DNA from: a virus
Strand: one strand, 5' to 3'
Length of the DNA: 20,647 bases
Virus record (IMG/VR): IMGVR_UViG_3300000151_000012
Location: 1 to 20,647 of that record
Positions 8,158 to 19,857 of the stretch are shown here, in pieces. Within the stretch, counting starts at the first letter, position 1. Each line of letters starts with the position of its first letter. The position numbers were made by a program, and so were the translations under genes. The notes beneath the pieces are model-generated. The model ran no database searches, had not been told where the DNA came from, and was given only the letters and a program-made list of their open reading frames with translations.

Positions 8158-9273
8158 TTAAATAGCAGTATCGAGAGTGATGATGCCATGATCTTCGACA
8201 CCATTATCAATATTGGAATGGAACTGAGGCTTCAGCAGACCAAAGATCTTACTGGTAGAGATACCAGTCTGATTCTCATAGTCATACTTCTCCTCGTCCC
8301 ACGTAGCATCATTAATATCCGCCATCGCCAGAGCCTGAGCACCGCAGAACAGTACACGCTGACCAGCAACAGTACCGAATGTAGTATCCATGCCAGTACC
8401 ATCCAGATCACCAACAGTAGTAGCAAGCTGAGGAACATGGCGATACTCGTGAATCCACAGACCATCGACCAGTACAGAACTTGTACCCGCAAACAGCTCA
8501 TTCTTGGAGCCACGAACACCTGCATTGCGGACGTTAGAGATATAATCGCTATCCATCTTCAGTGCAGCCATACCCTGAGGACTCATGAACACATGATAAA
8601 CCTCTTCACCACCACCGCTCTTAATACCACGAACGTACTTGTCTTTAGCAAAAGCCTTAGCTTCAACCAACATCTTATAAGATGGAGTATCTGCAGCAGC
8701 CAGAGCCGTACCAGTAGCAACCAGACCGTTAGTAGCATCCCAGCGCATACCACGATTAGTGGACGGGGCGACTACATCTGATGCGAACTCCAACTGATTA
8801 AGGTTAGAGCCAGTACGTGCAACACCACGGTTAGTGTACCCATAAGGGATACCAGCCATTGTGAGGAATGCCAACTGATCGAGACGCTCACTCATCCAGT
8901 AACCCAACTGGTCGCGTCCATTCTCACGGAACTTAACGACTGTCTTCTGATCACTCATGCGACCGTGATTACGCACAGCATGACGGAGCTGATCAATAGT
9001 GATTGTCTGCGCACGATTCTGCAGCGCCTCTTCGTTCCCTTCCAGTGTGTTGTCTCCAACTACACCATCATTGGTCAGATCATTCAGCAACTGAATAACT
9101 GCTTTATCACCCTTCTCGGTCTTGGTCAGTTCCTTAATGTTCTGAACGAGAGCGTTAGAACCAGAACCGGCAAACTTGTTAATGAATGAATTATTACGCG
9201 CAACCTTCCACAGATCACGGGACCACACCTTCTTCTGAGCATCGCTCAAACCGGCAAAATTAGTAAGCGCCAT
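8158..9273 (-). CDS. Major capsid protein (N4 gp56 / DUF4043-like, HK97 fold)
   Basis: The chosen ATG at 9273 gives 371 residues and follows a strong CAGGAG site; the frame extends upstream only through a TTG at 9303, inside a terminator-like hairpin. The N-terminus (MALTNFAGLSDAQKKVWSRD) followed by FINKFAGSG, then TKTEKGDKAVI, DGVVGDNTLEGNEE and ITIDQLRHAVRNHGRM, matches the pattern I know from N4 gp56/DUF4043-type major capsid proteins. The C-terminal part includes the TWDEEKYDYENQ segment of that family. It would self-assemble on the scaffold to build the head. Position after the scaffold gene and before the decoration-like gene agrees. It is preceded by its own promoter-like element and a long structured leader. 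Confidence 0.88.
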   Translation of the reverse strand: MALTNFAGLSDAQKKVWSRDLWKVARNNSFINKFAGSGSNALVQNIKELTKTEKGDKAVIQLLNDLTNDGVVGDNTLEGNEEALQNRAQTITIDQLRHAVRNHGRMSDQKTVVKFRENGRDQLGYWMSERLDQLAFLTMAGIPYGYTNRGVARTGSNLNQLEFASDVVAPSTNRGMRWDATNGLVATGTALAAADTPSYKMLVEAKAFAKDKYVRGIKSGGGEEVYHVFMSPQGMAALKMDSDYISNVRNAGVRGSKNELFAGTSSVLVDGLWIHEYRHVPQLATTVGDLDGTGMDTTFGTVAGQRVLFCGAQALAMADINDATWDEEKYDYENQTGISTSKIFGLLKPQFHSNIDNGVEDHGIITLDTAI

Positions 9274-9295
9274 TTCGCTTCTCCTGAAAAATATT

Positions 9296-9323
9296 AAAAA
9301 CAACAGAGCAATTTAGCTCTGCT
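9296..9323 (-). terminator. Terminator-like hairpin just before capsid ribosome site
   Basis: On the minus strand an 8-bp stem (AGCAGAGC / GCTCTGTT, one G-T pair) with a six-base loop TAAATT is followed by GTTTTTAATATTTTT and then the capsid ribosome site. It has the layout of an intrinsic terminator, but it lies between the capsid promoter and the capsid gene, so it may act as an attenuator, as the end of the portal-scaffold transcript, or as a 5' stabilising hairpin. Confidence 0.55.
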
Positions 9324-9328
9324 AATAC
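9310..9328 (-). promoter_or_regulatory. Degraded fourth copy of the late palindromic element
   Basis: On the minus strand this reads GTATTAGC-AGA-GCTAAATT: the left half is identical to the three full copies and the right half differs at two bases. It overlaps the terminator-like hairpin before the capsid gene. No -35-like sequence is seen at the expected distance, so it may be a binding site or a relic. Confidence 0.4.
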
Positions 9329-9470
9329 TTCTCAGGATGGCGGCTCCTACTGATCACTTGTTTAACGCCCTTAAGGTATCCCGTCAGATCTAACGGGGAT
9401 TGCTTAGGCAATCGGTCTCCAGAGGCTCGACTCCGGTGCTTGCGAGATTGGGTACTACATTAATAGCTCA

Positions 9471-9498
9471 ATATTAGCATTGCTAATACGTGTGTCAA
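9471..9498 (-). promoter_or_regulatory. Capsid promoter with embedded palindrome
   Basis: On the minus strand TTGACA (9498-9493) is followed 16 bp later by TAATAT (9476-9471). The element GTATTAGC-AAT-GCTAATAT fills the spacer and includes the -10. It stands between scaffold and capsid genes and would start a transcript near 9464. The -35 matches the sigma70 consensus fully and the -10 matches in part, including the first two and last bases. Confidence 0.65.
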
Positions 9499-9511: not shown

Positions 9512-10489
9512 TTAAGCAACGTAATCTCCACGTAGGTCGTGATATGTCTCCGGCTCCTTGTCGATCATAGAATCGAACTGCGAATCTGTGAGCTTAGAGA
9601 TATCGACCACTACCCCTTTCCCATCAGAGGACCCAGAAATTCCACCGGCTTTGGGTGGCTGTTTATTAGACGCGGCCACCTTCTCTTTAACCTGGGTCTG
9701 TTCAACTTTAGGTTGGACTGGTTCAACCGCAGTCGTAGGTTCACCCAACGAAGTCTCACTCTCCAACAACTCAGGGTGGAATGCGCGGATAGCCGCATCC
9801 GCTGCCTTACCTAACGCATCCGAGCGGGTATAACCCGCAGACAGGTAGCCCTGCATGATAATATTAGTCTGCTCTACAAAAGCATTGTTGTAATCGGCAC
9901 TCTCTGGATTGTAGATATCGTAGGTGTCAATCATACCAGCGACAGATGTATCGAACTCACGCTGCTCTTTAGCCTGGGCCAGCGTATAACCTGTGACCTG
10001 AGTCTGTTCGAACTGGTACTGCTCACGTTCAGCATTACGGATCTCACCGCGTAACTGTTTTGCTTTAGTTTTATCTCCATCCAGAACAGCATCCATGTAC
10101 TGCTCTTCTTTGGACTCAAAATCAAACTCAGGGGCATTTGGTTTGTTTTCTTCAGCATGTTGTTTAGCAACTTGCGCTTCCAGTATGCGATTCTTCTCAA
10201 TGAGCACGTCCATACGATCTTTCGGGATCATATTTTCATCTGTACGTGTAGCGGGTGCTACTGCTGTCTCTGACTCCGACGCTGTCTCAGTCTCAGTAGC
10301 AGTCTCGGATTCCGCACTCGTTGTCTCTAGTACGGTCTCGGTCTCGGTCTCGGTCTCAGCTTCAGTGACTTCAGGCTCGGAGGTATCAGTTTCAACTGGT
10401 GTAGACTCTTCCTCAACCTCAGTATTAGGGATAAAGTCTCCACGGTCTTCCTCAGTGGTGTCGTCAACGGGGGTTTCTACAGGTTCCAT
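9512..10489 (-). CDS. Capsid scaffolding protein
   Basis: A 325-residue acidic protein with an excellent TAAGGAG ribosome site, 10 nt after the portal gene. The N-terminal 95 residues are low complexity, dominated by alternating E and T with some S and V, and encoded partly by four copies of a GGTCTC hexamer on the plus strand (10333-10357). A charged helical middle (about 115-180) and an alanine-rich helix (about 215-240) follow; the C-terminus ends with a compact DISKLTDSQFDSMIDKEPE segment that could bind the capsid. High charge, helicity, and the portal-scaffold-capsid gene order are the classic signs of a scaffold that guides head assembly and is then released. Sequence homology was not established. 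Confidence 0.75.
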   Translation of the reverse strand: MEPVETPVDDTTEEDRGDFIPNTEVEEESTPVETDTSEPEVTEAETETETETVLETTSAESETATETETASESETAVAPATRTDENMIPKDRMDVLIEKNRILEAQVAKQHAEENKPNAPEFDFESKEEQYMDAVLDGDKTKAKQLRGEIRNAEREQYQFEQTQVTGYTLAQAKEQREFDTSVAGMIDTYDIYNPESADYNNAFVEQTNIIMQGYLSAGYTRSDALGKAADAAIRAFHPELLESETSLGEPTTAVEPVQPKVEQTQVKEKVAASNKQPPKAGGISGSSDGKGVVVDISKLTDSQFDSMIDKEPETYHDLRGDYVA

Positions 10490-12668: not shown

Positions 12669-13643
12669 TTACGCCCTTAACCATGCCCACTCGTCCTCGT
12701 CATCACGAGCAATCTCGTCGTCGGTGCGAACACGTACACGCGACCCATCACCGGCAGTAACTACATGACCGTTACCATAGGTGAGATAAGAACCAGATTG
12801 TGTTGGCGTTGCGCCTAACTGCTGCTGCTGTAGTTGTGGCTGCTGCTGCTGTTGTTGTGGTTGTGGTTGTGGTTGTGGCTGTGGCTGTGGCTGTAGCTGT
12901 GGCTGTGGCTGTGGCTGTGGAGGTACACCTAACTGCCCTGATGGTCGTGGGTCAGCTACGTTAATATCCTGAGGCCGTACTGCGGTAGGGGTTACTCCAC
13001 TCGCCCCTAATCCAGCAGCCGCCTCAATTTGCTCACCCATTGGACGATTGTCAACACCCAGCCGCTCACTCTGGCCCTGGATTCTACGTCCGAGGCGTAA
13101 GGCTCGTTCACGTTCTAAATCCAATGTGTACGTTGATGGGTTACGCTCTATGTAAGTTGCTAGGGGTTGGGCTACGACATACTCAGGATCAATTAACGGA
13201 GTGGTAGGATTCATCGGTGCCTCACCTGTCGATGGCCCTACACCAGCAGAGATCATATCCGCCTGTGCCACACCAGGATGGTGCTGCATTGCGACCTCTT
13301 CCGCACGTGGTAGTAACCATGCGTCCATATCAACACCTGGGAATGGTTCAGTTAGACCTACCGACTCAGCGCGTATCGCTGGGTTAAACGACTCCGCTTG
13401 TGGTGCAGTATTATCAGCACGGATGTGTGTCGGTTGACCTAATGAATTAGCGGCTGCCCGTCGGGGCCCAAGATCCAGCATGAGTTCCTTGTTCTGCCGC
13501 AACGGATGCCCAGGATTACCCTGCACACTGTCCTCGTCAGTCACTGCGGTATTACCACCCAACTTCTGAGCCAGCATCTGCGCCTGATAGACATCTTCTA
13601 CTAATTTATACTCGTTGGTATCTCTATTCCACACTATGTACAT
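12669..13643 (-). CDS. Probable virion protein with PQ-rich tract (unknown)
   Basis: This 324-residue protein is not recognised. It has an AAAGGA ribosome site and begins 12 nt after the previous gene. The N-terminal 35 residues (MYIVWNRDTNEYKLVEDVYQ) look folded; the remainder is largely disordered, rich in P, A, G, N and R. Residues about 241-276 are a run of alternating P and Q followed by Q only, encoded by a hexanucleotide repeat at 12816-12923. The C-terminus is strongly acidic (DDEIARDDEDEW). Position between large terminase and portal suggests a virion or assembly protein; a role as an internal or ejection protein is possible but unsupported. Confidence 0.55.
   Translation of the reverse strand: MYIVWNRDTNEYKLVEDVYQAQMLAQKLGGNTAVTDEDSVQGNPGHPLRQNKELMLDLGPRRAAANSLGQPTHIRADNTAPQAESFNPAIRAESVGLTEPFPGVDMDAWLLPRAEEVAMQHHPGVAQADMISAGVGPSTGEAPMNPTTPLIDPEYVVAQPLATYIERNPSTYTLDLERERALRLGRRIQGQSERLGVDNRPMGEQIEAAAGLGASGVTPTAVRPQDINVADPRPSGQLGVPPQPQPQPQLQPQPQPQPQPQPQQQQQQPQLQQQQLGATPTQSGSYLTYGNGHVVTAGDGSRVRVRTDDEIARDDEDEWAWLRA
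12816..12923. repeat. Hexanucleotide repeat coding for PQ/Q tract
   Basis: On the plus strand the pattern is TGTGGY repeated with some changes, then GCTGCTG-type triplets. It lies wholly inside the 324-residue gene and codes for P-Q and Q runs. Copy-number changes of six bases would keep the frame, so it could vary in length without breaking the gene. Confidence 0.75.
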
Positions 13644-13654
13644 ATTTTAATCCT

Positions 13655-14995
13655 TTACTTAACCAGTCCAACTCGTTTACCAAGCTCCGAATGTATTGAA
13701 TACTCCTCCCTTATCGCCTTAATACCCTGTTCTATCTTATTGAGCTCCATCCCCGCCTCTCTGGCTTCCTCGGCATTGCCACTATGCAAGGGTCTTTGTC
13801 GCCATTCCTCTAGTATATTTGCCTTCATGGCTTCCCCTTTATCTAGCGTGCCCCTCAACTGCGCCTGTCTCGCCTGCCACATCTCATCCCCCTGTGCGGT
13901 AGCAAACGCGCGAGCTCTCTCACGGCGATAGGCATTGATATTTGGATCGTTACGCATGAGATTCTTCATCTCCTCCTTCAAATTCCGCAGACCGTTGGCG
14001 TTAGCGTCTCGCGCCTCCTCTAAACTTGGAGACCAACCTTGGCCATCAAACGAAGGATGTAGTTCATGTGTGTATAACTCCATCGAGCTGTACTGGTTGT
14101 TCAACTTCTCGTATTTAGCCTGATTTTCTGGGGTCATACGTGGGAAATCCCCTTGTCTTGCTTTACTAAAAGCCACATCCAAATCGGCGTTCAGTTTTTC
14201 GAACTCAGCCTTCTGCGCCGTGGACATCTTCCCCTGGTCCCTAATATGGGTCAACTCGTCATAGCGCGTTACCTTCTCTTTACCGAGATACGAGGCGATA
14301 TCATAGTCACCATTGAAATTATCCACCTTGGTGTAATATTTGGGATTTCCGCTCCGTTCTCGTAAAAACGCAGTCTCACTAGGGCGGGCGCCATGCGCCA
14401 AGTCGGCATCATATGTCGTATCAACCAGACCATCCCACCGATTCCCATTTTTACTGGCCACCCTTACCACATCGTCCGCCTTACTGACCACGGGCGCTAC
14501 CTCACCTAAAGCACGCATAGTAGCAATGGGTACGGTTGCCGCAGCAGCGGCCTTACCTGCGGAACCAAGAAACTCACGACGTGATGGGTTATGGGTCGAG
14601 TTAACAACCTTACCAACCGTGTCCCCTACCTTTTTACCAGTACCAATCACGCCCTGTGCGTAAGAGATAGGTCCCGGGATACCCGCACCCAACTGAGTCA
14701 CCATCCCGATGTTACGCAAACGAATATCAGCGCGGTCACTCAAATCGTTAGGTCTCGGGCGATCGTCCCAACCTATCATACGACCCAACCCTTGGGATGA
14801 TGCCTCAAACAGGGGCATCTCAAGTGTCTGATTTCGCACCATATGAGGGATGTCGGCAATAATCGCTGGGGATGTAATCCCCTCCGCTACCCCCAATTGT
14901 GCACGGTCCATTAGATAATCAGGGATATCTAAATATTTCTGAGCCATCCATTCCCAGTCGCTTACAGCTTTCGCCTCACCTAACCTACCTGCCAT
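13655..14995 (-). CDS. Unknown virion-like protein with internal Tat-like motif
   Basis: The ATG at 14995 (446 residues) is preferred over one at 15022 because a GAGG site lies 8 nt upstream and 15022 falls inside the terminase gene. The first 120 residues resemble an amphipathic, membrane-active or virion-internal segment. At residues 138-144 the sequence SRREFLG is followed by SAGKAAAAATVPIATMRAL, a twin-arginine motif plus a hydrophobic, alanine-rich stretch, but placed internally rather than at the N-terminus. The C-terminal half is highly charged and helical. I do not recognise the family. Its place between large terminase and portal points to a virion or ejection protein; it may enter or cross the membrane at infection. 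Function unknown. Confidence 0.6.
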   Translation of the reverse strand: MAGRLGEAKAVSDWEWMAQKYLDIPDYLMDRAQLGVAEGITSPAIIADIPHMVRNQTLEMPLFEASSQGLGRMIGWDDRPRPNDLSDRADIRLRNIGMVTQLGAGIPGPISYAQGVIGTGKKVGDTVGKVVNSTHNPSRREFLGSAGKAAAAATVPIATMRALGEVAPVVSKADDVVRVASKNGNRWDGLVDTTYDADLAHGARPSETAFLRERSGNPKYYTKVDNFNGDYDIASYLGKEKVTRYDELTHIRDQGKMSTAQKAEFEKLNADLDVAFSKARQGDFPRMTPENQAKYEKLNNQYSSMELYTHELHPSFDGQGWSPSLEEARDANANGLRNLKEEMKNLMRNDPNINAYRRERARAFATAQGDEMWQARQAQLRGTLDKGEAMKANILEEWRQRPLHSGNAEEAREAGMELNKIEQGIKAIREEYSIHSELGKRVGLVK

Positions 14996-15005
14996 TTCTT
15001 CACCC

Positions 15006-16613
15006 TCATGCTGACATCGCACTCTTACATTTATCGCCCATCGTATAACGGGTCAACTGGTCTCGCCAACTGGCCTGCTTCTTATGCGTAGCGATATGTG
15101 GCGACTGTAACTCCTCAAGGTGGATGCCTAAATACGCCAGCACGTCCACCACGTCATCATTTTTACCGAAGGGGAACTGTAACAGCTGAGTGGTTAAATA
15201 GTCCAACCAATGCGCCTCGCGTGGGAAATAGACCTTACCTTGAGCCATACGTCCCTGTAAGGATCTAGCCCTTAACGACTTATCACGTCGCCCAGGTAGC
15301 ATCTCCTGTACGTGCATACTGAACTGCTTACGCTCTCGGATACGCTTGTTAAGGAATGGACCAATTGCCATCTGCATATGAGTGCGCTCGATAAGAGTAG
15401 AGGCCGGTTTATACTGCTCATGCACGTCGATCATGCGCTCCACAATCTCCATCGCATCCCAGCGACCATACATGATATCCAGTAAGTACCAGTCCTCTGA
15501 CTTATCGATACCTACCACCGCACAAGCTGTGTAGTCGTTGGTCTCTTTTTGACCTAATGCTAAGTCCCAACTCGCATAAATTGTAAGTGGAGACGGTAAC
15601 GGGTGTGTGTTCTTATCGTAATATTTGAAATAGTGACGTTGGAAGTAAGCACCCTCGTCTGCAGTCGGTTTCTGCTGATACAATGCCGACCATGTACTCT
15701 CATTACCTGGAGCATTCTTAATTGCGTTCAACTGTTTCAAGTCATAGCGCTCAGGGTGTAACGCCTCACCCTGTTTACGATAATCCTCATCCTCAATAGC
15801 AATCGCAGGATACTCCACCACTTCCCACAGAGGTATATCGATACCTGCTTTAATTGCGTCCTCCTGCTGTAACCGTAGTCGCCCCGACAAATCGTCATGG
15901 TGCCAGCGTGTTTGAATAACCAGACAACCACCACCAGGTGCCAAACGAGTATACGCTGTGCTATTCCACCAGTTCCACGTACTCTCCCGATTGGTCTCAC
16001 TAACCGCGTCCTCCCAGTTACGCACAGGGTCGTCCACGATCAATAAGTGAGAACCGCGACCTGTAATACCACCACCTACACCGGCAGCTAAGAATCCGCC
16101 ATTACGGGTGGTGAGCCAATTCTCAACAGACTGACTGTCCTTATGCAACCGAGTCCCTTTAAACACATTCTGGTAACTTTGCTCTCGTAACAACTCACGG
16201 ATCTTACGAGAAAATGTCATAGACAATGATGCACTGTAGGAACAGGCTATCACCTCCATCTCTGGGTGATTACCTAAGAACCAAGCGGGGAACATAGTCG
16301 ATGCAAGGAGGCTCTTACCGTGACGAGGTGGGACTGCGATCATCAATCGAGGGGATTTTTTATCAATGATATCCCGCGCGAACTGTTCTAACCTCTGGCA
16401 TATGTCTTTGTGCACCCAACCAGGGAGATAGTCAGGCTGCATTCGCATAACAAACGGTAACAATCTACGTCGTGCGAGTACCCGACGAACTAACTCCTGT
16501 TCCTGAAGCTCTTTTTGAGAAACAGTAGCGGTTTTAGCCACCTTGCATTTCGTACAGTACTCATCCGTATCAGGTATTACTTTCCCACAGTCTGCGGCGC
16601 TACACAGTTTCAT
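15006..16613 (-). CDS. terL: Terminase large subunit
   Basis: This 535-residue DNA-packaging motor has an ATPase then a nuclease domain. Walker A (AVPPRHGKS, residues 93-101) and Walker B with catalytic carboxylates (LLIVDD, 190-195) are clear; the coupling-motif-like QTRWHHDDL lies at 234-242. The C-terminal nuclease has acidic residues at D350 (ASWDLALGQ), E409 and D487/D488, in the pattern of the TIGR01630 terminase C-terminal region. Unusually, residues 4-23 form a C-x4-C-x10-C-x2-C zinc-binding motif. The start is coupled to the small terminase stop (TAATG), and its TGA contributes to the ribosome site of the next gene. It cuts and pumps DNA into the head through the portal. Confidence 0.96.
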   Translation of the reverse strand: MKLCSAADCGKVIPDTDEYCTKCKVAKTATVSQKELQEQELVRRVLARRRLLPFVMRMQPDYLPGWVHKDICQRLEQFARDIIDKKSPRLMIAVPPRHGKSLLASTMFPAWFLGNHPEMEVIACSYSASLSMTFSRKIRELLREQSYQNVFKGTRLHKDSQSVENWLTTRNGGFLAAGVGGGITGRGSHLLIVDDPVRNWEDAVSETNRESTWNWWNSTAYTRLAPGGGCLVIQTRWHHDDLSGRLRLQQEDAIKAGIDIPLWEVVEYPAIAIEDEDYRKQGEALHPERYDLKQLNAIKNAPGNESTWSALYQQKPTADEGAYFQRHYFKYYDKNTHPLPSPLTIYASWDLALGQKETNDYTACAVVGIDKSEDWYLLDIMYGRWDAMEIVERMIDVHEQYKPASTLIERTHMQMAIGPFLNKRIRERKQFSMHVQEMLPGRRDKSLRARSLQGRMAQGKVYFPREAHWLDYLTTQLLQFPFGKNDDVVDVLAYLGIHLEELQSPHIATHKKQASWRDQLTRYTMGDKCKSAMSA

Positions 16614-17528: not shown

Positions 17529-17762
17529 ATGAGAAACATCATGGAAATAGCAGAAGAGTTCGCTCCGACGCATCTAGTAGCAATCGAGGTTATGAGCCAT
17601 TCTCGGTTGTATCAAGACCCATTGCATTTTTGGATGGGTGAGGAGTTCGAACTAAGTGAAGAGCACTACGATGACTTGGTTTTCAACATCGAAGAAGGAA
17701 AACGTCGTAATGATGGTTTCCAGGTATATTCATCCATCTCATTAAACGGAGCAGTAAAATGA
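17529..17762 (+). CDS. Cassette gene A, first copy (unknown small acidic protein)
   Basis: A 77-residue acidic protein with an AGGAG ribosome site. I recognise no family. It starts MRNIMEIAEEFAPTHLVAIE and contains YQDPL, FWMGEEFE and a well-kept NIEEGKRRNDGFQVYS segment near the C-terminus. No membrane segment, signal peptide or catalytic motif is seen. Its TGA overlaps the ATG of gene B (ATGA), so the two are probably made together and may interact. It is about 83% identical to the second copy, 18941-19153, over 70 residues. The final seven residues are absent from that copy because of an earlier stop. Position suggests an early phage gene. Confidence 0.8.
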   Translation: MRNIMEIAEEFAPTHLVAIEVMSHSRLYQDPLHFWMGEEFELSEEHYDDLVFNIEEGKRRNDGFQVYSSISLNGAVK

Positions 17763-18442
17763 ACAAGTACGTCACGAAGGATTTAATCACTGCACAGGTT
17801 GTTAAAGAAACAGGCTGGAGCTTGTTGAGATCAGCATACATGAATTGCTGGGGAGCGTGTAACTCTCTGGCCGCAAAGGAGATCGATACTGCAGACGGCG
17901 GTATTGATGCTTACGAGCGCGCGGAGAATGAGGAGGTAATGAGAAAGCAAGATAAAGAGTTCTCATTCGCGACCGGGCTTGAAACCCAAGTCGATCCTAT
18001 AGTCACAGCCCGCCAATGGATGGGAGTGATAGAGGTCCTGTACCCACTGATGGACGCAAAGGATCGCTTACATCCATCGGACTTCTTAAAGGAACGGCTT
18101 AATGAAAAGCCCGAGTTCGAGATGTCTACGCCAGACATTGAGATGCGGATGAACGCCACGGGGTTATCTCAAGCGGAAATACTCGCTAAGTTCAGGGAAA
18201 ACTCCTTAGTGGCTTGGAATAAGCAGTCTGCGCAACGGGAACGGGCTGCAGATATCTTTAAAGTCATAGGCGCGGTCGATGATGCACCTCAAGCGCTAAT
18301 TGAAAAAATAGAGCAGTTCGCTACTAAGCGAGCAAAACAAGCATCATCGGACAACATGGTAGAGCGAGGCAATGAAAGCCTGGCGAATATCGCGTTGATT
18401 AAGCAGGAGCTCGCGGAGGCGGAAGCGATTATAACCCACTAA
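17759..18442 (+). CDS. Cassette gene B, first copy (unknown helical protein)
   Basis: A 227-residue, mostly helical protein with no recognised family. Strongly kept segments between copies are VVKETGWSLLRSAYMNCWGA (about 14-33), DKEFSFATGLE, ARQWMGV, DAKDRLHP, AWNKQSAQRERAA and DNMVERGNESLANIALIKQE near the C-terminus. Only two cysteines are present, C30 and C34, and both fall in the conserved NCWGAC segment; C34 is in both copies as C30 is. No membrane segment or nucleotide-binding motif is visible. The start overlaps the stop of gene A, and a strong terminator follows at 18463. About 80% identity to 19171-19857 shows a recent-to-moderate duplication with purifying selection likely. Confidence 0.82.
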   Translation: MNKYVTKDLITAQVVKETGWSLLRSAYMNCWGACNSLAAKEIDTADGGIDAYERAENEEVMRKQDKEFSFATGLETQVDPIVTARQWMGVIEVLYPLMDAKDRLHPSDFLKERLNEKPEFEMSTPDIEMRMNATGLSQAEILAKFRENSLVAWNKQSAQRERAADIFKVIGAVDDAPQALIEKIEQFATKRAKQASSDNMVERGNESLANIALIKQELAEAEAIITH

Positions 18443-18940: not shown

Positions 18941-19153
18941 ATGAAAAATATCATGGAAATAGCCGACGAGTTCGCTCCGACGCATCTAATAGCAATCGAA
19001 GTAATGAGTCAATGTCGGTTGTATCAAGACCCACTACAGTTTTGGATGGGAGAGGAGTTCGAAGCAACTGAAGACCACTACAACGACGTGGTTTTCAATA
19101 TTGAAGAAGGAAAACGTCGTAATGATGGTTTCCAGGTGTATTCAGCAATTTAA
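18941..19153 (+). CDS. Cassette gene A, second copy (unknown small acidic protein)
   Basis: A 70-residue protein with an AGGAG site, about 83% identical to the first copy. It is shorter because the codon aligned with TCA of the first copy is TAA, which removes the last seven residues and also the ATGA overlap with gene B; the next gene now begins 17 nt later with its own GGAG site. The NIEEGKRRNDGFQVYS segment is intact and most substitutions are conservative, so it is probably still functional. It gains a cysteine at residue 25 (QCRLYQ). No family is recognised. Confidence 0.78.
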   Translation: MKNIMEIADEFAPTHLIAIEVMSQCRLYQDPLQFWMGEEFEATEDHYNDVVFNIEEGKRRNDGFQVYSAI

Positions 19154-19170
19154 CTAAACGGAGTAAGACA

Positions 19171-19857
19171 ATGAGTAAATATACAACCAAAAACCTCATC
19201 ACTGAACAAGTGGTTAAGGAAACAGGGTGGAGTCTGTTGCGTTCGGCGTACATGAATTGTTGGGGGGCGTGTAGCTCCCTAGCGACAAAGGAGATCGATA
19301 CTACAGACGGTGGGATCGATGCGTATAACAAAGCAGAAGACGAAGAAATAATGCGAACCCAAGACAAGGAATTCTCATTCGCAACGGGACTTGAATCACA
19401 AGTGGACCCCATAATCGCAGCCCGCCAATGGATGGGAGTGGTAGAGACGCTATATCCGATGATGGACGCAAAGGATCGATTGCATCCCAGAGAGTTTATC
19501 CAAGAACGGCTTAATGAAAAACCCGACTTCGAGATGTCTGAAGCGGACATTGCGGTGAGGATGAGCGCCACTGGGTTAACGAAGGAGGAAATACTCTCTA
19601 AGTTTAAGGAGAACTCATTGATTGCTTGGAATAAGCAGTCTGCACAACGGGAACGTGCTGCAGAGATCTTTAAGACCATAGGAGCAGTGGAGGATGCACC
19701 TCAAGCTCTAATCGAAAAAATAGAGCAATTTGCTGCGAAGAGAGCAAAACAGGCCGCAACTGACAACATGGTAGAGCGGGGTAATGAAAGCCTGGCAAAC
19801 ATCGCGTTGATTAAACAGGAGCTCGCTGCGGCAGAAGAAGCAATCGTCACCCACTAA
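19171..19857 (+). CDS. Cassette gene B, second copy (unknown helical protein)
   Basis: A 228-residue protein about 80% identical to the first copy along its whole length, with one extra residue near the C-terminus (AEEAIVTH). Substitutions are spread out and mostly conservative, while long blocks such as GWSLLRSAYMNCWGAC and SAQRERAA are unchanged, so both copies look functional. Divergent stretches are near residues 45-65 and 120-145. It has its own ribosome site (CGGAG). No terminator follows; a small cysteine-rich gene begins 12 nt later, suggesting a longer transcript than that of the first copy. Function unknown. Confidence 0.82.
   Translation: MSKYTTKNLITEQVVKETGWSLLRSAYMNCWGACSSLATKEIDTTDGGIDAYNKAEDEEIMRTQDKEFSFATGLESQVDPIIAARQWMGVVETLYPMMDAKDRLHPREFIQERLNEKPDFEMSEADIAVRMSATGLTKEEILSKFKENSLIAWNKQSAQRERAAEIFKTIGAVEDAPQALIEKIEQFAAKRAKQAATDNMVERGNESLANIALIKQELAAAEEAIVTH

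Follow-up and report, generated by a model that had tools for sequence, protein, structure and literature searches.

A folded RNA leader before a podovirus-type capsid gene that very probably tunes the amount of capsid protein

The sequence before the major capsid gene of a 20.6-kb virus record (the window, meaning the whole stretch of 20,647 nucleotides analysed here) very probably gives rise to a folded RNA leader by which the amount of capsid protein is tuned. The leader folds, and three of its stems covary with those of the closest relative. In other relatives, capsid leaders carry recurrent hairpins and pseudoknots as well as a complementarity to the Shine-Dalgarno (SD) sequence that tracks the SD of each phage. 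The more specific reading, a promoter followed by a folded 5' leader that controls translation of the capsid mRNA in cis, is held with about even confidence. RNA-level control of the most abundant virion protein is poorly known beyond T7, T4 and the RNA phages.

Locus and promoter

On its minus strand the window has the structural genes of a podovirus in the order terminase, portal, scaffold-like ORF, capsid gene and more virion genes (Table 1). The scaffold-like ORF, for which the family search gave no match, ends at 9512; the capsid gene begins with an ATG at 9273, and the leader lies in the gap of 238 nt between the two genes. Elsewhere in the record, a minus-strand ORF with a long PQ repeat (12669-13643, repeat at about 12800-12960) is located between the portal gene and 13655-15022 and had no Pfam match. 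A gene pair on the plus strand (77+227 aa and 70+228 aa; 17529-18442 and 18941-19857) appears by eye to be a tandem duplication, and the Pfam search of its first copy (17529-18442) gave no match.

A reading made earlier from the sequence only had proposed a promoter-like element followed by about 190 non-coding nucleotides before the capsid ribosome site. Both were found, on the minus strand at 9498-9274. The promoter has the form TTGACA-16-TAATAT, with TG preceding the second hexamer, and from the position of the -10 hexamer transcription would start at 9464. Promoters of this kind recur in the wider group described below, since 39 of 114 leader clusters have a site with at least 9 of 12 consensus matches between -300 and -90 (12.1 expected). 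By eye, an inverted repeat, ATTAGCA-A-TGCTAAT, overlaps the -10 hexamer at 9487-9473; the closest relative has a different inverted repeat, ACTACTATT/AATAGTAGT, at the same promoter position. Such a repeat is a possible operator. A leader peptide was rejected, no small ORF with a ribosome site being kept between the window and this relative.

Table 1. Positions of the capsid leader, its elements and the flanking genes in the window
Feature	Position	Strand	Basis or remark
Major capsid protein	8158-9273	minus	Pfam Phage_capsid_3, phrog_334
Shine-Dalgarno AGGAG	9281-9285	minus	Sequence
Long hairpin pairing the SD region (15 bp), with apical terminator-like hairpin 9324-9301	9282-9337	minus	Folding, consensus scan; not conserved in L001
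Capsid leader RNA (5' UTR)	9274-9464	minus	Folding, non-coding; start placed from the -10 hexamer
AGGA-GC-CGCC-A-UCCU box/hairpin	9334-9348	minus	Same 15 nt in L001 and at 24 loci from a distant group of phages
GGGCG box	9366-9370	minus	May pair with the loop CGCC of 9348-9334
Hairpin CCCGUUA-GAUC-UGACGGG	9380-9397	minus	6 pairs compared with L001: both sides differ in 2 and one side in 1, with pairing kept throughout
Hairpin GAUUGC-CUAA-GCAAUC	9398-9413	minus	Both sides differ from L001 in 3 of 6 pairs, pairing kept
Hairpin CCGGAG-UCGAGC-CUCUGG	9419-9436	minus	Relative to L001: 2 pairs changed on both sides, 1 on one side, none broken
Sigma-70-like promoter	9471-9498	minus	TTGACA 9498-9493, TAATAT 9476-9471; 10 of 12 consensus matches
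Scaffold-like ORF between portal and capsid	9512-10489	minus	By position and acidic composition

Stems of the leader and the closest relative

The four successive hairpins named in the sequence-only reading (9436-9419, 9413-9398, 9397-9380 and 9348-9334) were all recovered at these coordinates. The region 9464-9274 folds at -63.0 kcal/mol as compared with -44.6 +/- 4.4 kcal/mol in shuffled sequences (z -4.18), and none of the 200 shuffles folds as well. This energy signal comes entirely from the last hairpin. When it is removed (9464-9338), z becomes 0.04 and 98 of 200 shuffles fold as well, which means that the upstream stems are not unusually stable. At the level of sequence comparison, the support for these stems is compensatory change relative to the closest relative, not fold energy.

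The capsid search for relatives gave twelve loci. Seven of these are near-identical to one another (L001-L007), with 69% capsid identity to the window and a leader 71% identical to that of the window over 189 aligned positions. A further locus, L161, represents the phage of the window itself, on a contig that stops inside the leader; L001 is thus the sole independent close relative in the collections searched. Compensatory change among relatives had been set beforehand as the test of the stems, and it was present in the comparison with this one relative: of the 18 pairs in three stems, 7 differ at both positions and 2 at one, 9 are unchanged, and no pair is broken. In L001 the first and third stems contain two G-U pairs each, as expected if the element acts as RNA. 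Near-invariant boxes shared with the window are CTCGCAAGCAC followed by GAGTCGAGCCTCT, and AGGAGCCGCCATCCT. The GGGCG box is conserved as well, exactly 17 nt ahead of AGGAGCCGCCATCCT in both leaders. The loop of hairpin 9436-9419 possibly pairs with CUCG at 9446-9443; this putative pseudoknot would need a 1-nt loop across a 4-bp stem. Covariation support was found for neither of the two putative pseudoknots of the window.

The terminator-like hairpin and attenuation

The sequence-only reading had ended the leader in a terminator-like hairpin with a U tract (9323-9296) and had compared the arrangement to an attenuator or antitermination leader. The hairpin and the U tract are indeed present. 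UUUUU directly follows the terminator-like hairpin 9324-9301, and this tip passes the terminator consensus scan. In the best fold, though, pairing of UCCUGAGAAGUAUUA (9337-9323) with UAAUAUUUUUCAGGA (9296-9282) takes up the U tract, the tip belongs to a longer hairpin and the AGGA of the SD lies inside the 3' arm of the latter, which makes the terminator label doubtful. A conserved G+C-rich hairpin with a free U tract, as in an intrinsic terminator, is not what the window has.

The SD-region fold, with the gene start included, reaches -33.2 kcal/mol in the window versus -7.7 in L001, which has neither the strong SD hairpin nor the terminator-like tip. Among the 114 leader clusters, 4 have a terminator-like site within the final 90 nt (0.6 expected). 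A transcription attenuator or antitermination leader would be consistent with the position of the leader immediately downstream of a promoter and with that of the hairpin and U tract (9324-9296) immediately before the SD. Because the tip is absent from L001 and such sites are so rare before the SD, attenuation is rejected as a shared function and is not the conserved feature; in the window itself an A-rich sequence pairs with the U tract, and the SD is sequestered. Attenuation is regarded as improbable.

The wider group of capsid leaders

A set of 332 sequences was gathered from three more capsid alignments and a genome scan; 329 of them had a capsid match and 324 were kept, and 289 leaders in 121 clusters were used. 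Loci were excluded when the capsid start had less than 140 nt before it or the intergenic sequence was shorter than 130 nt, and L099-L160 served for the 15-mer analysis only. These leaders fold better than their shuffles, with a mean z of -1.9 and 42% of values below -2. When hexaloops were counted with no prior motif, GCGACA and GCGAUA were the commonest; the RCGAYA form had been noticed by eye before this count. Hairpins with RCGAYA in hexaloops number 27 as compared with 0.20 in shuffles, and those with nine-nucleotide loops 39 as compared with 0.80. RCGAYA-loop hairpins are present in 69 of 121 clusters. The stem of one such hairpin, aligned over 24 leaders, has pairs that vary between GC (12) and CG (11) and between CG (11) and AU (8), and RNAalifold on the alignment A6 kept the RCGACA hairpin alone.

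The 101 RCGAYA-loop hairpins found in 27.6 kb of leader correspond to 3.65 per kb, a 50-fold enrichment; the density is 0.073 per kb upstream, 0.073 per kb downstream and 0.058 per kb antisense. This bears on a further alternative, namely that the region is a DNA element (an operator, or replication or packaging hairpins) or has drifted with no RNA function. The inverted repeats that overlap the promoter in both the window and L001 would suit a DNA element, but the RCGAYA hairpins are strand-specific, being enriched on the capsid sense strand of the leader only, and the compensatory changes include G-U pairs. This alternative is considered quite improbable.

A second recurrent element of the leaders, about 100 nt before the ATG, is a small H-type pseudoknot, for example GGAG-UU-CGAC-CUCC-UAAAAA-GUCG. 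Its stem 1 is GGAG:CUCC or CGAG:CUCG, and its stem 2 is CGAC:GUCG, CGCG:CGCG, CGCA:UGCG, CGGC:GCCG or GUAC:GUAC. The initial core set was chosen by a pattern demanding a CG-type stem 2; the swap tests of stem 2 and of the strand-SD pairing were made without that demand. A first count of stem-2 pairs on a MAFFT alignment that was partly misaligned gave 66% paired, and the swap test came after it. Over 51 clusters, stem-2 complementarity is 9.61 with a leader's own partner and 8.25 +/- 0.25 with partners swapped (0 of 2000 swaps as high).

The CUCC strand of the pseudoknot is often complementary to the SD, and its flanks follow the SD of each phage, as in L270 (CUCCUAAAAAG:CUUUUUAGGAG), L216 (UCUCCGUCAAA:UUUGAUGGAGA) and L077 (ACUCCGUAAG:CUUACGGAGU). 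Complementarity of the leaders to their own SD is 15.8 versus 14.6 +/- 0.25 after swapping, and that of the pseudoknot strand 14.2 versus 12.3 +/- 0.35 (0 of 2000; 45 clusters). In the controls, swapping is exceeded by the reversed zone as well (12.3 versus 11.6; 5 of 2000) and, by a small margin, by a neighbouring zone (27 of 2000); shared base composition therefore accounts for part of the SD complementarity, though not for all of it. Inside the GGAG:CUCC class alone the SD-to-leader signal is weak (45 of 2000). Openness of the SD is 0.270 as compared with 0.312 when leaders are shuffled, a small effect (p 0.002; 118 clusters).

Relation of the window leader to the group and to known families

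The window leader shares the position typical of the group, between the scaffold-like ORF and the capsid gene and after a promoter. It also has a GGAG:CUC-type stem 1 with CGA in the loop at the core position (GGAG-UCGAGC-CUCU), with a stem 2 of only UCG:CGA (3 bp). No RCGAYA-loop hairpin, nor any CGAYA motif, was found in it; the nearest form is the hexaloop UCGAGC. Two covariance models, R1 from 23 cores with the window excluded and R2 from 24 leaders of other classes, did not recover the window leader (0.4 bits with R1). By position and general design, the window leader is a divergent variant of the group, not a member proven by model.

In the seven records (47-68 kb) that contain training loci, R2 gave one strong match per genome, each in the leader. 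It found no strong second copy behind other promoters, such as a put-like element might have, which weighs further against antitermination. In two of the other 13 of the 20 records (G021 and G026) the best match lies in the leader at E below 0.01, and in G027 a leader match at E of about 0.07 is tied with an off-leader site (contig coordinates). Over 22 loci, R2 gave four cross-class matches at E below 1, all of them in capsid leaders (L270, L195, L206, L307) and none in the window or L001. The group thus coheres across several classes.

Rfam 15 gave no family at or above the gathering score for the window, in agreement with the earlier statement that no known riboregulator class could be recognised, and no Rfam family matches the leaders of the group as a whole. 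A known RNA family was rejected: among the relatives, a few match abiF and L017 has a group I intron at 2149-2471 (RF00028, 67.2 bits), with no further Rfam match. This intron lies directly before the annotated capsid frame of MW202615, which begins inside the capsid homology. CsrA prefers GGA loops. Control by CsrA was rejected as well, given that the recurring loops are RCGAYA and that the window has no CsrA-like gene between scaffold and capsid. Such a gene does stand there in Klebsiella phage LASTA and Burkholderia phage BcepIL02 (L018 2154-2363, L019 2167-2361), where the leaders are about 98 nt long. A two-hexaloop ANTAR RNA was considered too and set aside, its loop consensus differing from RCGAYA. 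In the literature searched on phage structured RNAs and capsid leaders this leader is undescribed; two catalogues of structured RNAs, one of viruses and phages and one of 224 motifs, lay outside that coverage, so an earlier description is possible. The available part of PMC8040213 contains no mention of capsid.

The 15-nt box in a distant phage group

Loci carrying AGGAGCCGCCATCCT or the other box number 63, with a capsid homologue in 29. Besides the seven L001-type loci, AGGAGCCGCCATCCT occurs in 24, of which 22 have a detectable capsid (22-27% identity) and two have none in the available piece. In the 12 of these 24 loci with reading frames listed, the box lies between a long portal-type ORF and an ORF of about 0.9 kb before the capsid gene. 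It is the first of two or three tandem pseudoknots of the form S1-GC-CGCC-R-S1'-NNAAG-GGCG. Stem 1 varies as AGGA:UCCU, AGU:ACU, AGCC:GGCU, AGGU:ACCU and CAG:CUG, and 0 of 1000 shuffles reach the observed pairing, despite shifted registers of GCCGCCGCC that lower it. Compared with this pattern (AGGA-GC-CGCC-A-UCCU, then NAAG-GGCG), the window is identical at 15 of 15 nucleotides of the box and carries GGCG, the partner strand in the distant group, upstream, in permuted order. The search was seeded with the box, so finding it unchanged at the 24 loci is a matter of construction; the repeated position before the capsid gene and the second and third pseudoknots are not. The pattern GCCGCC-N4-8-AAGGGCGA had at least 120 matches in viral contigs and is uninformative, a capsid homologue being present in 1 of 80 loci among the matches listed. 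A DNA search of named phages with the L101 element gave no match.

Translational control and its alternatives

For control of translation in cis, the following course may be proposed. A strand beside the hairpins or small pseudoknots would pair either within the upstream fold or with the capsid SD. The strand in question in the window is UCCU (9337-9334), which would close the AGGA-UCCU hairpin, whose loop CGCC matches the upstream GGCG, with release of the SD; alternatively, the same UCCU would close the long hairpin with the AGGA of the SD, which would then be hidden. Capsid output would be set by whatever stabilises the upstream fold, for which a phage or host protein, the ribosome and a ligand are candidates. 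The switch, its signal and an action of the window leader similar to that of the relatives' leaders are what we infer here. Against control in cis weigh the lack of an RCGAYA hairpin and of an R1 or R2 match in the window, the absence of the SD hairpin and the terminator-like tip in L001, the ordinary stability of the upstream stems and the small size of the SD effect across the class.

The main rival is a leader that, as in T7 gene 10, keeps output constitutively high: 5' hairpins would protect the mRNA, a U-rich tract before the SD would recruit ribosomes and no switch would be involved. The T7 gene 10 leader has the same layout of promoter, 5' hairpin, UUAACUUU and SD. UUAACUUU is found between -50 and -8 in 9 of 120 clusters (0.62 in shuffles); these account for half of its 18 occurrences in 599 kb, and L001 also carries it. 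The zone from -50 to -12 is U-rich (31.5% versus 21.0% upstream). The window, however, has no UUAACUUU before its SD, covarying SD complementarity and a hidden SD are unexpected for a pure enhancer, and a lone hairpin would need no conserved loops or pseudoknots. An enhancer-only leader is judged possible but rather unlikely. Cis control of translation is favoured in view of the U-rich zone and UUAACUUU, as in T7 gene 10, and of the parallel to the pseudoknot of T4 gene 32.

Some capsid leaders carry orphan abiF RNAs (RF03085) at their 5' end: L184 (1805-1841, 49.6 bits), L182 (1805-1841, 45.0 bits), L177 (1801-1837, 35.6 bits, below the cut-off of 37) and, by pattern, L185. At the abiF position of L182, eight other leaders (L179, L189, L205, L213, L217, L220, L223, L300) have an H-type pseudoknot, AACC-loop-GGUU-UGUA, with a second stem that covaries by eye. 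In L134 an abiF RNA lies away from the capsid leader (2637-2672), with a terminator after it by eye. An RNA with the abiF motif neutralises AbiF in C. difficile, according to the available part of PMC12373285. The orphan abiF RNAs are possibly decoys against AbiF defence. A more general form of this reading, that the leader carries RNA decoys (pseudo-antitoxins) against host defence on the most abundant late mRNA, draws on these RNAs, on the result that no Abi_2 protein was found in 20 records (many of them fragments, and L185 not among them) and on the tandem pseudoknots of the distant group, which recall type III antitoxins. It is thought very improbable for the leader, as no abiF or antitoxin match occurs in the window or in most leaders and SD complementarity favours a role in cis.

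Comparison with known systems and significance

The leaders resemble that of T7 gene 10 in the promoter directly upstream, the 5' hairpin and the U-rich tract before the major-capsid SD, and UUAACUUU is common to T7 and the 9 of 120 relative clusters; the T7 leader is 63 nt long from the annotated promoter start and has one 5' hairpin, whereas these are about 150-200 nt long and contain pseudoknots. An enhancer element upstream of the T7 gene 10 SD is described in the part of PMC8748333 that was available. In the T4 gene 32 operator, too, the leader of a phage mRNA carries an H-type pseudoknot, and the ribosome site downstream of it is A+U-rich (PMC3014915, available in part). Unlike the capsid case, where a binder is only hypothetical, the gene 32 product is its own repressor. 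The same 2010 review, in its available part, holds that this pseudoknot may be the sole viral one in translational autoregulation.

With type III antitoxin and abiF RNAs, the short tandem pseudoknots of the distant group and the true abiF RNAs in a few sister leaders provide a likeness; the differences are that no toxin gene adjoins and that the window has none of these RNAs. Translational riboswitches that combine an H-type pseudoknot with SD sequestration include the preQ1 and SAM/SAH types. The capsid leaders share with these the A-rich third loop of the pseudoknot and a strand competing with the SD, but they have no Rfam match and change far faster than the usual metabolite aptamer.

A broader proposal is put forward tentatively, as something less than probable. 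The leaders might constitute an undescribed, widespread capsid riboregulator: a fast-evolving leader with minimal H-type pseudoknots (stem 2 often CGNN:NNCG), RCGAYA hairpins and a pseudoknot strand doubling as anti-SD. The window would then be a permuted form, with GGCG before AGGA-GC-CGCC-A-UCCU, and in some phages an added abiF RNA would make the abundant late mRNA a decoy. A leader of this kind across the capsid lineage, with covarying pseudoknots and SD pairing, would open RNA-level capsid control to tests in isolates such as KPP25, phiA008 and AP1, and could provide strong expression leaders or switches.
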